DNA from: Actinomycetota bacterium
Lineage (GTDB): Bacteria; Actinomycetota; Acidimicrobiia; Acidimicrobiales; Ilumatobacteraceae
Assembly: GCA_009701715.1 (NCBI GenBank)
Contig: WLJO01000014.1
Coordinates: 1 to 53,219, forward strand
Direction of reading: 5' to 3'
DNA length: 53,219 nucleotides
This document shows, piece by piece, positions 37,420 to 42,823 of the stretch; the first letter of the stretch is position 1, and every line of letters starts with the position of its first letter. A program made the position numbers and the translations under genes. The notes beneath the pieces are model-generated. The model did not search any database, was not told the origin of the DNA, and worked only from the letters and a program-made list of their open reading frames with translations.

Positions 37420-37440
37420 GCCCGTACGCTGTTGGCGGTC

Positions 37441-38391
37441 ATGAGAGTCCCCCGCCTCCGTCCGAAGACCTATCGCGCCATCACGTTCGCGTCTCTCGTG
37501 TCGCTCGCCGCCATCGTCGTGACTGGCGCACTCGTTCGCCTCACCGACTCCGGACTCGGCTGCTCGGACTGGCCGCGGTGCAACGACGACAAGATCATCG
37601 ACGTATCGAGCACCCATGCTGCGGTGGAGCAGATCAATCGATTGTTCACCGGGGTGGTATCGCTAGCGGTCATCCTTGCCGTCGCTGGCTCGCTGATCCG
37701 CTCGCCTCGACGCAAGGATCTCACCTGGCTGTCGCTGTCGCTCGTGATCGGTGTCATCGGCCAGGCGGTCGTGGGCGGGATCGTGGTGCTCACCCATCTC
37801 AATCCGATCGCCGTCCAGCAGCACTTCCTCCTCTCGATGGTGATCCTGGCTGCCGCCGTCGTCCTCCACCGCCGGGCGACGCTGCTCGACGGTGAGCGTT
37901 GGGTCCGAGCCGTCGAACCGGGGACGATGCGTCTCGTCTGGCTCGTCGCTGCGCTCACGGCACTAGCGATCGTGACCGGTACCGTCACCACCGGCACCGG
38001 ACCGCACAGCGGCATACACAAGGGCGAGTACGTACGGCGCTTTGGCTTTGAGATTTCCTCGGTGGCGCGCGTCCACAGTTCAGCCGTCATCCTCACCGTT
38101 CTCTCCGCGCTGTGGCTCGTCTGGAGGGTGCGCGGAAGGCCAGACCGCCTACGACTCGAGAACGCGATCTCTACCGTGCTCGTGGTTGCCCTCACCCAGG
38201 GCGCCGTCGGGTACCTCCAGTATTTCAACGGCGTGCCGGTGGTGCTCGTGGCCCTCCACGTCGGTTTCGCGACGACTCTCTGGCTCAGCGTCGTGTACCT
38301 GCTGGTCGCCACCCGGAACGTTGTGGCGGGGGAGCAGCCCCTGCCGTCAGACGAAGCGAGCGAGCTCTCGGCAGACGTCGTAGAACTCTGA
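37441..38391 (+). CDS. ctaA: Heme A synthase (CtaA/COX15)
   Basis: CtaA oxidises the methyl group of heme O to make heme A for aa3-type cytochrome oxidase. The 316-residue protein has about eight membrane helices. It carries the extracytoplasmic loop cysteines C41 and C47 (GCSDWPRC) and E63. Heme-ligand histidines lie in VQQHFLLSM, ARVHSSAV and ALHVGFATT. The first ligand position is Asn66 (EQIN) where Bacillus CtaA has His60 (ExxH). Start is ATG 37441. The last 45 nt overlap the convergent nitronate-monooxygenase-like gene. Confidence 0.9.
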   Translation: MRVPRLRPKTYRAITFASLVSLAAIVVTGALVRLTDSGLGCSDWPRCNDDKIIDVSSTHAAVEQINRLFTGVVSLAVILAVAGSLIRSPRRKDLTWLSLSLVIGVIGQAVVGGIVVLTHLNPIAVQQHFLLSMVILAAAVVLHRRATLLDGERWVRAVEPGTMRLVWLVAALTALAIVTGTVTTGTGPHSGIHKGEYVRRFGFEISSVARVHSSAVILTVLSALWLVWRVRGRPDRLRLENAISTVLVVALTQGAVGYLQYFNGVPVVLVALHVGFATTLWLSVVYLLVATRNVVAGEQPLPSDEASELSADVVEL

Positions 38392-39294
38392 CACCGTCTC
38401 TTCGATGATCTGGCGGACGGGCAGCACGGACTCGATCCTGCCCGCCACCTGCCCGGTGAGCGCAAGGGCGGCTTCCATGTCCCCACCGAAGTAGAGATCC
38501 ATCGCGTTCGCCATCTCGGACAGCGAGACATTGTCTTGGCGCTCCAACCGTTCGCTGCGAGCAGTGCGCAGCGTGCGCAGACCGGGGCTCGAGAATCTGT
38601 TAAGGAACACCGTGTCGGTCTCGGCGGCGTTGACGATCGCGTTCTTCCAGTTCCCGTGAACCGGTGACTCCGCGGCCGAGACCATGCGGGTGCCCATCTG
38701 GACGGCGTCCGCACCGAGGGCGAGCGCTGCGGCCATGCTCCGGCCGTCGGTGATGCCTCCCGCTGCGACGATCGGCACGTTCACCTTCGATGCCACGAGG
38801 GGCACGAGGACCATCGTCGCGACGTCTCGCGGGCTCTTGAAGCCGCCGCCCTCGCCGCCCTCGACGACAAGCCCGTGCACACCCGCAGCGAGCGCCTTGA
38901 GCGCGGACTTCAGGGTGGGTACCACGTGGAACACGGTGAGGCCGGCCTGCATGAGCGGAACGGCGTACTTGTTTGGATCACCCGCGGACGTCGTGACGAA
39001 CCGGACGCCCTGGTCAACCACGAAGTCGGCGATGGAGGGATCCCTCACGAACAGTCCGGCGATGTTGACGCCGAAGGGTTTGTCGGTGAGATCCCGCATC
39101 TTGCGGATCTCCTCGCGGACCTGATCGAGTTCACCGGACGAGGTCTCGATAATGCCGAGGCCGCCTGCATTGGACACCGCAGAAGCAAGTTGCGACCGGG
39201 CAATCCAACCCATGGGGGCCTGGATGATCGGGTAGTCGATTCCGAGCATCTCGGTGATGCGGGTCTTGACGGGTGCGGGTCGGCTCTCGGTCAT
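38347..39294 (-). CDS. Nitronate monooxygenase-like FMN TIM-barrel protein
   Basis: The 315-residue protein belongs to the 2-nitropropane dioxygenase/FabK superfamily. It has YPIIQAPMGWIA, PFGVNIAGLF, VPLVASKVNVPIVAAGGITDGRSMAAALALGADAV with the phosphate-binding loop, and QMGTRMVS. The usual active-site GGH is here GGEGGGFKSP, so the catalytic His of nitronate monooxygenases is Phe. The true reaction may therefore differ. Its C-terminal coding end overlaps the convergent ctaA by 45 nt. Start is ATG 39294. A histidine phosphatase gene lies upstream, 17 nt away on the same strand. Confidence 0.82.
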   Translation of the reverse strand: MTESRPAPVKTRITEMLGIDYPIIQAPMGWIARSQLASAVSNAGGLGIIETSSGELDQVREEIRKMRDLTDKPFGVNIAGLFVRDPSIADFVVDQGVRFVTTSAGDPNKYAVPLMQAGLTVFHVVPTLKSALKALAAGVHGLVVEGGEGGGFKSPRDVATMVLVPLVASKVNVPIVAAGGITDGRSMAAALALGADAVQMGTRMVSAAESPVHGNWKNAIVNAAETDTVFLNRFSSPGLRTLRTARSERLERQDNVSLSEMANAMDLYFGGDMEAALALTGQVAGRIESVLPVRQIIEETVSEFYDVCRELARFV

Positions 39295-39311: not shown

Positions 39312-39980
39312 TCACGCTCGCAGGACGGGATCGAAGAGGTGGTGGGTGTCGTTCACGGTGACGACGTGCGTGCCGTCCGGTCCGATTCGGACCTTGCTGA
39401 CGCTCGTGTTCTCGCAGGTCATCCAGAGCGAGAAGGGCATGTCGAGCGCGTGCGCGAGGAAGGTTCCGATGACGCCCCCGTGGACGACGACGGCAATGGT
39501 TTCACCACGATGGCGCGCCGCGAGGTCGTTGATGACGTTGCTCACCCGGTCCCGGAACACCCGGTCGCCCTCGGCGCCGGGAATGCCGTCCCACGTGCGC
39601 CGTTTGGTCCACTCCATCCACTCGGGATCGCGCTCGGCGACACGGCGGCGGAACTCGCCGAGGGCCCAGTCCCCGAGGCGGACCTCCTCGAGATCCTCGA
39701 ACTCGGCGGTCGTTAGGCCACGGCGCGACGCGAGCGGCGCAGCGGTCTGGCGGGCCCGCTTGAGGTGCGAGGAGTACACGGCGTGGATCTTCTTGTCACG
39801 GAGGCGCTCGTCGAGCAAAAGTGCCTGCTGCTCGCCCTCGGTGTGCAGCGGGGGATCGCTTGCGCCGGCATCGCCGGGCACCACGTCGGCGGACCGACCG
39901 TGGCGGATGAGAAGCACCTCGCACGCAGCGGAGTGGTCGATCAGTTCAGTGGGTTGGGGGACGGGCTTTCCGGAGGTCAC
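39312..39980 (-). CDS. Histidine phosphatase superfamily protein (second copy)
   Basis: The 222-residue protein has LLIRHGRSADV near residue 22 with the phospho-accepting His. YSSHLKRARQTA follows, and the second catalytic His is in AVVVHGGVIGTFL. It ends in VVTVNDTHHL, a tail also seen, diverged, in the third copy. Both catalytic halves are present, so it should be active. Start is GTG 39980. It probably shares a transcript with the NMO-like gene that follows. Substrate unknown. Confidence 0.88.
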   Translation of the reverse strand: MTSGKPVPQPTELIDHSAACEVLLIRHGRSADVVPGDAGASDPPLHTEGEQQALLLDERLRDKKIHAVYSSHLKRARQTAAPLASRRGLTTAEFEDLEEVRLGDWALGEFRRRVAERDPEWMEWTKRRTWDGIPGAEGDRVFRDRVSNVINDLAARHRGETIAVVVHGGVIGTFLAHALDMPFSLWMTCENTSVSKVRIGPDGTHVVTVNDTHHLFDPVLRA

Positions 39981-40011: not shown

Positions 40012-41298
40012 TCACCTGCCGGCGTCGAAGAGCTCGCCGATCGTGTTGTTCGTCGTGCCGTCGGTGCCGAAGACCTGCTTACGGCGGGGTCCGATACCCG
40101 AGACGACGAATGCCCGCAGGGCCCGTGACGCCTCGCTGAACGAGACCAGCACGATTGCGTCGGGGTCCGCCGCCGTCACCCGCCGGGCAATGGGGAAGAA
40201 GTTGGTGGTGGCGCCGTCGTAGAGATCGGTCGTGAGCAGGGTCACACCGAGGGTCTCGAAGGACTTGGCAAGTTGCTCAGCGAGTCCGTTCCCGTAGGCA
40301 TCGTCGAGCGCCACGATGGAGACGGTGCGATTGCCGCGCTCGGCGATCACGTGGGCGAGTGTGTCGGCCTGGATGAGATCCGAGGGAAGGTTCCGGAAGT
40401 ACAGGCCTCCGTCTGGATAGTTGGTGAGCACCGGGGCGGTGTTCAGCGGCGAAAAGATCGGGATACCCGCAGTAACGATCTCGTCGATCACCTGGAGCGT
40501 GACGGCCGAGGAGTTCGACGCGATGACCACATCGACCCCGTCCGCCAGCAGGGCGCGTGCTCCGCGTACGCCGGTGTCGTCCGAAGCGTCCCCTGCGTCA
40601 GCGGTTCGGTACTCGAGTGATCGGCCGAGCACACCGCCGGCGGCCTCGATGTCGGCGAGGGCTAGTTCCCAACCGGCGCTCACCGCGGGGAGATAGATCT
40701 TGGCCCGGCCTGTCTTCGGTTGGAGCGCCCCGATTCGAAGGACCCCGTCGCCCTGGAGGTTCGCGGTTATCGGCTGGGAAGTCACCGCCATCGTGTCGGG
40801 TCGGGAACCCTTCCGGAAGGTGCGCTTCGTCGGGTCGATCCGATCGTTCGTGCCGAAGGTCTCGACCTGATAGTTGCCGGTGTCGGGTTCGCCCGCCTCG
40901 TTGAGTGGACGCCTGCCGGTTGCGCCCACGTACGACGGATCGCCACCCTTACGGATCACGGCAAGGCACGCAGAGAACGATTCGCACTCCGTGCCGTCCC
41001 TCGTCACACCGGTGATCTCCTTCGCGAGCGCCGTCCCATCGGTGCCTGCCACCTCGGCGGCGAGGGCGACGATCACCACCGAGTCGTAGGTCTCTGCGGC
41101 AAAATCGGTGTCCACGAGGCCAGCCCTGCCTGCCTCCGTTCCGGAGAGACGTGCGAGGAATGCCTCGTTCACCACCTCGGTGCCGGTTGTGCCGATCATG
41201 CCTTCGAGCGCTCCGGCATACGTCGGACGGGACCCGCAGGACGTCGCTGCGAGTAGCACGACGACCACGGCGGTCGGTAACAGTCGCTTGCTGCCCAT
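40012..41298 (-). CDS. LivJ-type substrate-binding lipoprotein with apparently circularly permuted domain order
   Basis: The 428-residue protein has a signal peptide and lipobox (LAATSC, C21), so it should be lipid-anchored. Residues ~30-149 look like the C-terminal tail of branched-chain amino-acid-type binding proteins: GMIGTTG, ETYDSVVIVALAAEVAG, then the CESFSACLAVIRKG and YVGATG segment. A linker follows (150-185). The normal N-terminal start appears only at ~186 (VLRIGALQPKTG), then AAGGVLGRSLEY, the FSPLNTAP strand, DDAYGNGLAEQL, and finally VFGTDG with the chain ending at FDAGR. The chain end joins exactly onto residue ~30 of the same protein if put in standard order. No permease or ATPase gene adjoins it. 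Start is ATG 41298. Confidence 0.85.
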   Translation of the reverse strand: MGSKRLLPTAVVVVLLAATSCGSRPTYAGALEGMIGTTGTEVVNEAFLARLSGTEAGRAGLVDTDFAAETYDSVVIVALAAEVAGTDGTALAKEITGVTRDGTECESFSACLAVIRKGGDPSYVGATGRRPLNEAGEPDTGNYQVETFGTNDRIDPTKRTFRKGSRPDTMAVTSQPITANLQGDGVLRIGALQPKTGRAKIYLPAVSAGWELALADIEAAGGVLGRSLEYRTADAGDASDDTGVRGARALLADGVDVVIASNSSAVTLQVIDEIVTAGIPIFSPLNTAPVLTNYPDGGLYFRNLPSDLIQADTLAHVIAERGNRTVSIVALDDAYGNGLAEQLAKSFETLGVTLLTTDLYDGATTNFFPIARRVTAADPDAIVLVSFSEASRALRAFVVSGIGPRRKQVFGTDGTTNNTIGELFDAGR

Positions 41299-41405: not shown

Positions 41406-42206
41406 ATGAGCGAAGTCCTCTATGACGTGGCCGATCACGTCGCCACAATCACCCTGAATGCCCCCGAGCGGATGAACACGATCTCGGGAGCGATGCTCGA
41501 CGACATCTCGGTGCGGCTCCTCCAGGCGGACCGAGACCGGGACGTACGCTGCATCATCCTCACCGGGACCGGACGTGCCTTCTGTGCGGGCCTTGACCTA
41601 GCGGCCCAGATGAGCGGCCCAACAGGGGGCCTCGGCAATCTCGGGAACCTCGACACGAACCCCGGCGAGTTCGACATTCGCGAGGCACCGCCGATCGTGT
41701 TGCACAACCTAGACACCCCGACGATCTGTGCGCTCAACGGGGGAGCGGCCGGCTATGGCCTCGACCTAGCTCTCGGCTGCGACATTCGGGTCGCAGCGAA
41801 GTCCGCGAAGATCAGCCCCGGGTTCGCCAAGCGCGGAATCCTTCCCGAGAGCGGTGGTACGTGGCTGATGCCCCGGATCGTCGGTTACTCCAAGGCTGCT
41901 GAGATCGCGTTCACCGGACGGACGCTGATGGCGGACGAGGCACTCGAGCTCGGACTGATCAACCACGTGGTCGAGCACGATCGGCTGCTGGAATTCTCGC
42001 GGGCCCTCGCATCGGAGATCGCCTCCAACGCGCCCCTTGCGGTCCGGGCGATCAAGCGGATGATGCGTGCGGCGGAGACCGAGACCTTCGAGCAGAACGT
42101 CCACCACGTGTTCCTGCAACTGCTCCCGCTGCTTCGCACCGACGACTTTCGTGAGGGTGTTGCTGCGTTCATGGAGAAGCGCAACCCGGACTTCCGGGGT
42201 CGGTGA
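41406..42206 (+). CDS. Enoyl-CoA hydratase/isomerase (crotonase) family, PaaG-like (second copy)
   Basis: The 266-residue crotonase has AFCAGLDLAAQM (oxyanion) and NGGAAGYGLDLALGCDIRV, where the first hydratase Glu is Asp. FAKRGILPESGGTWLMPRIVG follows, with an acidic residue at the PaaG-type catalytic position. This points to an isomerase-like or specialised hydratase role. It resembles the crotonase at 25351 in layout. Start is ATG 41406, divergent from the binding protein by 107 nt, a gap in which I saw no clear promoter. Its stop overlaps the next start by 4 nt. Confidence 0.88.
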   Translation: MSEVLYDVADHVATITLNAPERMNTISGAMLDDISVRLLQADRDRDVRCIILTGTGRAFCAGLDLAAQMSGPTGGLGNLGNLDTNPGEFDIREAPPIVLHNLDTPTICALNGGAAGYGLDLALGCDIRVAAKSAKISPGFAKRGILPESGGTWLMPRIVGYSKAAEIAFTGRTLMADEALELGLINHVVEHDRLLEFSRALASEIASNAPLAVRAIKRMMRAAETETFEQNVHHVFLQLLPLLRTDDFREGVAAFMEKRNPDFRGR

Positions 42207-42823
42207 CATTGTCGTCTTCCGACCCGTTCGTTGTCCTCGGGCTCTCGTTCGGTGCGCCGCTCGACGACATTCGAGCAGCGAGACGACGCCTTGCACGCGA
42301 CGCCCATCCTGACCGCGGGGGTTCCGAAGAGGCGATGAAAGCCCTCAACGCTGCGTTCGACTCCGCGATTGCTCACGCCACGGGAAGGCGGGTACTCGTC
42401 GATCCCGGGACGAGGGGCGCGGCGACTGGTTCGCGGCGGTCGACCGCACCTGCCGCACCTGCCGCACCGACGGCGCGGGCCGCCCAGCGGGAGCAGACAC
42501 GCAGTGCGGGGAGGTTCCGCGTCTCCCACGACCACCCCTCGTTCACGATCGACGCGCTCCCGGCGGAGGCGTACGAGGCGCTGCTCATCGTGTGCTCGTG
42601 GATCGGTGAGGTCCTCGTGGACGAACCGCCGTATGTCCTCGACGTTCATCTGTCCGATCCATCCGAGTGCTGGTGCCGGCTCGAACTCGTTCCCGACGCC
42701 GGTTCGAGCACCGTCAGCATCACGGTGGCCGCGGTGGACAGAGGGCCGTGTCCGGACGTCGAAGTGGTCCGCGACCTCTGGGTGTCGCACCTCAACCAGT
42801 TGGGCCGGTGGGACGGAGACTGA
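42203..42823 (+). CDS. J-domain protein with an unrecognised C-terminal domain
   Basis: The first ~60 residues are a DnaJ-type J-domain with the diagnostic HPD (H35-P36-D37 in DAHPDRGG). A J-domain stimulates the ATPase of a DnaK-type Hsp70. An Ala/Pro/Thr-rich linker (~70-95) follows, then a ~110-residue domain starting RFRVSHDHPSFTID that I do not recognise. There is no zinc-finger or client-binding domain of classical DnaJ. GTG 42203 overlaps the crotonase stop by 4 nt, so it is translationally coupled to it. The 206-residue protein is convergent with tsaC. Confidence 0.8.
   Translation: MTLSSSDPFVVLGLSFGAPLDDIRAARRRLARDAHPDRGGSEEAMKALNAAFDSAIAHATGRRVLVDPGTRGAATGSRRSTAPAAPAAPTARAAQREQTRSAGRFRVSHDHPSFTIDALPAEAYEALLIVCSWIGEVLVDEPPYVLDVHLSDPSECWCRLELVPDAGSSTVSITVAAVDRGPCPDVEVVRDLWVSHLNQLGRWDGD

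Follow-up and report, generated by a model that had tools for sequence, protein, structure and literature searches.

A very likely circularly permuted Liv-type substrate-binding lipoprotein and its swapped-order relatives in Actinomycetota

A naturally permuted type I substrate-binding protein (SBP) has previously been described in Treponema pallidum, namely TpMglB-2 (Tp0684), a lipoprotein of the glucose-binding MglB family classified as "Type Ic / Cluster Bc", for which ligand binding and a change of shape were reported (PMC4990184). In this protein the first three strands of the N-lobe have been moved to the end, and over its last 100 residues it shares just 13% identity with the corresponding part of E. 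coli MglB (PMC4990184); its distance from canonical relatives is too great to reveal how the permutation arose. No permuted SBP of the Liv type was found described in the titles and abstracts of the open-licence PMC literature that we searched. The protein studied here is, like TpMglB-2, in all probability a naturally permuted type I SBP, but it belongs to the Peripla_BP_6 family, carries the C-terminal third of that family at its front, and aligns clearly with canonical proteins over both of its blocks. It resembles the LivJ/LivK-type SBPs (PF13458) in being homologous to them over both blocks, in its lipoprotein-like signal and in having relatives with a livHMGF importer beside the gene, but differs from them in its swapped blocks, its new linker and the lack of an adjacent importer.

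The gene occupies 40012..41298 on the reverse strand of the window, by which we mean the whole stretch of 53,219 nucleotides that was analyzed from a draft genome of the Ilumatobacteraceae, and is a single open frame that starts with an ATG at 41298 and codes for 428 amino acids followed by a stop. As read from the sequence, residues 1-21 (41236..41298) form a signal peptide ending in a lipobox-like Cys21, which is nearly invariant across 15 permuted proteins. This is followed, on the same strand, by the moved block B, the family's C-terminal third (residues 29-158, equivalent to positions 297-425 of the canonical model; 40825..41214), a linker from the old C-terminus to the old N-terminus (about residues 159-181; 40756..40824), and block A, the family's N-terminal two thirds (residues 182-428, equivalent to model positions ~50-294; 40015..40755). 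In our proposal the order signal peptide-A-B would have become signal peptide-B-linker-A, with the cut falling in the loop between the canonical "..YGTDGNxGNALGExFD" element and "(I/L)xGMKGTTP". In the group of closely related permuted proteins to which it belongs (group I), the linker leads from the canonical C-terminal strand over ~20 residues to the motif "(E/A)GDGxLxIG", which resembles the final part of the spacer of some canonical proteins.

The Pfam profile Peripla_BP_6 (PF13458) matches the window protein with 130.7 bits against a curated cut-off of 31.7, only over residues 187-417, corresponding to positions 2-230 of the 343 in the profile. A canonical-order profile derived from an alignment of 15 canonical-order relatives, in contrast, matched the native protein twice, with model positions 297-425 on residues 29-158 (101 bits) and 37-294 on residues 168-425 (232 bits). 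Both Peripla_BP_6-type segments (N-terminal two thirds, C-terminal third) are thus present, but not in the canonical order. When the protein was rearranged (residues 186-428 followed by 30-185) a single match resulted, spanning model positions 56-425 with 339 bits, whereas a sham cut still left two matches. The total score rose merely from 328.7 bits for the two native matches to 339.6 bits; the profile evidence for permutation hence lies in the order of the matches, the gain in total bits being small. BLASTP against canonical proteins gave the same picture, with residues 182-424 aligning to 208-450 of G053 and residues 22-162 to 447-586, and with the same swap at 41-44% identity for G041 and G053, both of which come from the window's own taxonomic order. 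Furthermore, permuted and canonical rows agree to at least 95% in 35 alignment columns, of which the window protein retains 34. We conclude that the gene very likely encodes a genuine circularly permuted Liv-type (Peripla_BP_6) SBP lipoprotein; ligand binding and the fold of the whole protein are inferred.

When the window's own genome and 60 relatives (61 genomes) were searched, two kinds of matches emerged: those collinear over the whole protein and those split such that residues ~165-425 came first and ~26-164 after. A permuted-order profile was built from 15 permuted proteins. Collinear permuted matches were found in 20 of 397 genomes in the scan of the order, a count that omits six genomes of the genus g61 whose collinear-looking matches resemble tandem fusions; two of these six were read and contain A-B-A-B fusions. 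In the scan of the family (221 genomes), 83 genomes had collinear permuted matches, 39 the canonical type only and 3 fragments only, and none clearly had both types at E<=1e-60. The second piece in G1095, the end of which coincides with the ends of permuted proteins, lies beside livHMGF at the end of a contig. Both kinds occur inside the genera g4, g6, g11 and g20. Among the matches listed in the scan of the class (395 genomes), collinear ones were confined to the window's order, and no relative turned up in the viral contigs scanned. Since scoring was limited, for each listed genome, to no more than 4 first-look candidates in the scans of order, class and phylum and to 7 in the family scan, and since some match lists are incomplete, weaker permuted paralogues may have been missed.

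The reading of group I covered 37 permuted genes from 33 genomes. Block B starts at model positions 293-299 in 36 of these; in the remaining one, which begins at a contig end, it starts at 364. For block A the end lies at 291-295 in 35 genes, and the two others have it at 246 (contig end) and 281 (a divergent paralogue). In 18 of the 37 the N-terminal piece shows detectable homology to the signal peptide and spacer of canonical proteins. Two permuted copies per genome were observed as adjacent tandem genes in G001 (L094, 10682-13318) and G209 (L090, 1-4000), and on two contigs (L185 and L186) in G1054.

An AlphaFold2 model of the whole window protein was weak (mean pLDDT 61.4, pTM 0.58, from 5 aligned rows only). 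Residues 183-428 of this model match the N-terminal two thirds of LivJ-type structures (4n0q_B, Z 16.1; 4gnr, Z 15.7), with Z values of 14-17 for such folds in 50 rows. Because the structural matches barely cover residues 1-182 and the model is weak, the fold of block B in its place is not shown. When block B alone was searched against the PDB, the matches were limited to ankyrin-repeat and designed proteins (best E 5e-6, with no single stretch that passed), none of them an SBP; in a profile search of the PDB the swap was seen in 4gnr, with a weak second block (i-Evalue 0.49). We predict that the protein would adopt the usual two-lobed Venus flytrap fold, its lipid anchor now leading into block B.

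An earlier note, made from the sequence alone, had claimed that the C-terminal third of a LivJ-type SBP had moved to the front, and this claim held by profile order, by the many related genomes and by transporter context. Its readings of a single open frame (428 amino acids), of a secretion signal and lipobox ahead of the moved part (by sequence appearance) and of an old C-terminus that joins residue 30 without loss (model position 294 followed by 297) likewise held. Among the checks it had proposed, the rearranged-order alignment gave one match against two in native order, the same order was found in related genomes (the 37 genes from 33 genomes), and structural comparison matched residues 183-428 to LivJ-type folds, with a weak model and residues 1-182 barely covered. 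Its linker of ~36 residues failed in size, the extra linker being about 20-25 residues, and its statement that no permuted member of the class was known held in part: the permuted type I SBP TpMglB-2 is published (PMC4990184) and is not of the Liv family.

We then examined gene neighborhoods. Tail-to-tail placement with livF of a livHMGF operon was observed in 25 of 35 permuted loci, that of G075 being incomplete, while 6 loci lack livHMGF and 4 are ended by contig ends (25/31 scoreable loci). Similarly, 11 of 13 canonical loci are tail-to-tail with livHMGF, one is co-directional and one is without it, and three of three further canonical loci of the family agree with the tail-to-tail placement. 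By Pfam, the four operon genes of the permuted locus L096 code for two ABC ATPases, one with a BCA_ABC_TP_C tail, and two BPD_transp_2 permeases. The permuted gene hence stands, by position, in for the canonical protein beside the same livHMGF in relatives; the swapped block order, its conservation and this position are shown. That the permuted protein would serve livHMGF as the canonical one does is an inference, for which there is no ligand or transport datum. In a tree of 37 concatenated operons, 24 permuted-linked and 13 canonical-linked (including the fused G340), five switches of SBP type are needed, of which at least three are forced. The transporter tree does not track SBP type, which has therefore changed, or been exchanged, with respect to the lineage of the transporter; SBP and operon are not inherited strictly together. 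The livH-like frame next to the permuted SBP in L096 (13188-14915) has 576 amino acids with the permease at 275-561 only, and therefore may have a long N-terminal extension, its start codon being unverified. Three group I paralogues that are divergent yet share the cut (L091, 2828-4369; L092, 469-1902; L093, 4091-5503) have no livHMGF alongside; orphaning has therefore happened outside the window's genus too.

Within the window's genus, where the importer operon was not found, the gene appears to be an orphan. The window locus keeps the shared flanks enoyl-CoA hydratase (41406..42206, forward strand; common to 4 of 14 neighborhoods compared), COX15/CtaA (37432..38391, forward strand; common to 7 of 14) and SDR, and the place of the relatives' livHMGF is occupied by a histidine phosphatase superfamily gene (39312..39980) and a nitronate monooxygenase-like gene (38347..39294), both on the reverse strand. 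A 206-amino-acid frame at 42203-42823 has relatives in 5 of the 14 neighborhoods and no Pfam match at E<=1e-5. No livHMGF-like operon adjoins the window gene, the only ATPase match being 25% identical and 10 kb away. The earlier note's claim that there are no transporter genes beside it thus held, while its suggestion that the protein acts alone is to be corrected: this looks like a derived state of the window's genus, because relatives keep the livHMGF operon beside the gene. The cognate LivM was not found at E<=1e-20 in G000, G001 and G002, the genomes of the genus, and is present in G020, G005 and G034 at 61-70% identity; the 12 BPD_transp_2 matches of G000 belong to other systems. G000 is 97% complete, and the absence of the importer from G001 and G002 is weak evidence because these genomes are only 81% and 85% complete. 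Compared with the G001a copy, the window gene has a dN of 0.26 and a dS of 1.34; dN to G001 is 0.05-0.10 for four neighbors, and dS, at ~1.3, is close to saturation. The dN/dS is about 0.19 to G001a and 0.28-0.33 to two more distant copies.

The scan of the phylum (396 genomes) uncovered further permuted groups outside the window's order. Group II (G998, G767) shares the cut loop of group I, has a different linker and lies at the livH end in divergent orientation. Residues 229-465 of G767 are 76% identical to 75-311 of the canonical G350, and residues 70-207 are 71% identical to 313-450; G767 is a complete permutation relative to G350 with one residue missing, and this is visible in the DNA too. 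Group III was recognized in the family of G864, where 70 of 101 genomes have collinear matches that stop near profile position 418. Of these 70, 13 also have a canonical-type match, and 11 further genomes have the canonical type only; six of the listed collinear matches (in G1283, G1289, G1288, G1268, G1244 and G1227) run through a stop codon. Among the 16 group III proteins that were read (15 genomes), the end of block A falls at model positions 268-273 and the start of block B at 268-277, placing the cut ~22 residues before that of group I. None of the 16 loci has livHMGF beside the group III gene, and three have weak (27-31%) ATPase matches. A small gene of unknown family (about 130-180 amino acids) lies near the group III SBP in 13 of the 16 loci (L178 and L231-L245), and what we take, from its sequence, to be a Leu/Val dehydrogenase-like gene lies within a few kb in 8 of the 16.

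In a 115-row tree each permuted group forms a clade with support of 99-100, and three changes between canonical and permuted order are needed, two of them forced by strong branches. An AU test rejected the joining of groups I and II as one clade (p 0.0012). In a 50-row tree, whose rows were hand-chosen from the 115, strong branches force three changes, and bootstrap trees need 3-3 (5-95% range). The first trees, with long-branch canonical rows, had no single permuted clade and needed four changes; an early tree without 6 rows needed one change, with a low support of 52, and two when three divergent permuted rows were removed as well. Half-trees gave three and two changes, and one permuted clade was not rejected (p 0.87 and 0.667). 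Strong support appeared only with wider canonical sampling (97 for group I with G864, 99 for group I without it), and group I received 99 in the 115-row tree and 100/98 in the 50-row tree. Nine rows (G000out, G006, G209can, G093b, G022, G209a, G264, G380b and G395b) were dropped before the later trees, and C_G048 additionally from the 115-row and 50-row trees. With the canonical order taken as ancestral, the three changes therefore translate into three origins of the permutation. The separateness of groups I and II is the firmest part of this; that of group III, which rests on the tree and the cut site, is likely, there being no AU test of I with III.

Several alternative explanations need to be weighed against these readings. 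As the window comes from a draft genome of 96 contigs, its swapped order could be viewed as a misassembly or annotation artefact that fused pieces of two SBP genes. Against this, the same order and cut are found in the 37 genes read across 33 genomes, 83 of the 221 family genomes have collinear matches, and group III proteins were read from single-contig genomes (e.g. G864, G1212, G1245 and G1299); because the same order recurs in separate assemblies it is no assembly error, and this explanation, which we reject, is all but excluded. Much the same can be said of the possibility that an unrelated N-terminal domain was fused to a truncated SBP missing its C-terminal third. In its favor, single-sequence searches of Pfam and the PDB detect the C-terminal two thirds only, and block B alone matches no SBP in the PDB; however, block B alone scores 104 bits on positions 299-426 of the canonical model, and block B of group II is 71% identical to a canonical C-terminus (G767 versus G350). 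A foreign domain is hence rejected on the match of block B to the canonical profile. A single ancestral permutation with later returns to canonical order could account for all three groups, and is favored by the shared cut loop of groups I and II and by the nearness of groups I and III in the trees. This is very unlikely in view of the rejection of a joint I+II clade, the three changes needed on both the 50-row and the 115-row trees and the different cut site of group III; moreover, regaining the exact canonical order would require more permutations.

With regard to the orphan in the window's genus, it might be a decaying leftover of importer loss, as suggested by the missing cognate LivM and by a gene that changes faster than its neighbors. 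This appears unlikely: the open frame is intact in the three genomes of the genus examined, dN/dS is low as given above for both G001a and the more distant copies, the gene has been duplicated in tandem in G001, and the protein retains 34 of the 35 family-wide conserved columns. Its faster evolution could nevertheless also reflect relaxed constraint. Another possibility is that the orphan functions as a sensor or receptor subunit instead of a transport subunit, for which one can adduce the lack of an adjoining importer and the lack of livHMGF in all 16 group III loci read; on the other hand, the ten window proteins scanned, which did not include all neighbors and one of which matched nothing, gave no match to a family of sensor histidine kinases, chemoreceptors or cyclases. 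The likely reading, in the absence of ligand or transport data, is that the window gene is a functional orphan and not a pseudogene. That it still binds its ligand and acts as a stand-alone lipoprotein feeding another Liv-type importer is an inference that we favor over sensing or decay, while conceding that it is more apt to be wrong than right.

As to how the permuted order arose, we propose that tandem canonical copies would have fused in frame to give signal peptide-A-B-A-B, and that this chain would then have lost its first A and its last B, leaving the permuted order with the signal peptide kept. Such fusions exist: single frames of 818 and 828 amino acids in L088 (2446-4899, reverse strand) and L089 (4966-7449, forward strand) each code for a pair of canonical Liv-type SBP domains, of which the second lacks a signal-peptide match, and they adjoin other single copies in tandem as well as livFGM; the order scan gave the same match pattern for four more genomes of that genus, which were not read. 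Like the window protein they are of the Liv family and contain B-A, here across the fusion joint, but they are still A-B-A-B, are of the stated lengths and fall in a different, distant clade of the tree. Their existence shows that an intermediate of the postulated kind is possible; they are not the direct ancestor of the window gene, and the route itself is inferred. Origin by tandem duplication and loss of the outer parts, as had been suggested before, thus remains an inference, made plausible by the existence of canonical in-frame tandem fusions and of tandem permuted copies.

A bolder reading, to which we give slightly less than even credence, is that permutation is recurrent and selected in this SBP subfamily, with at least three independent events in one phylum, each fixed in its lineage, because re-threading shifts the lipid-anchored end and would thereby alter the way in which the tethered protein approaches its importer or partner. 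The cut sites behind this reading lie in the same loop in two groups and about 22 residues before it in one.

These proteins also carry a warning that profile annotation can label permuted SBPs as truncated, as the Pfam match here suggests. The fused tandem copies provide a natural model of the intermediate. Permuted and canonical proteins are up to 74% identical overall (G767 versus G350), and given such close pairs, the same importer beside both and the occurrence of both within genera, the effect of permutation on folding, binding, anchoring and docking is directly testable.
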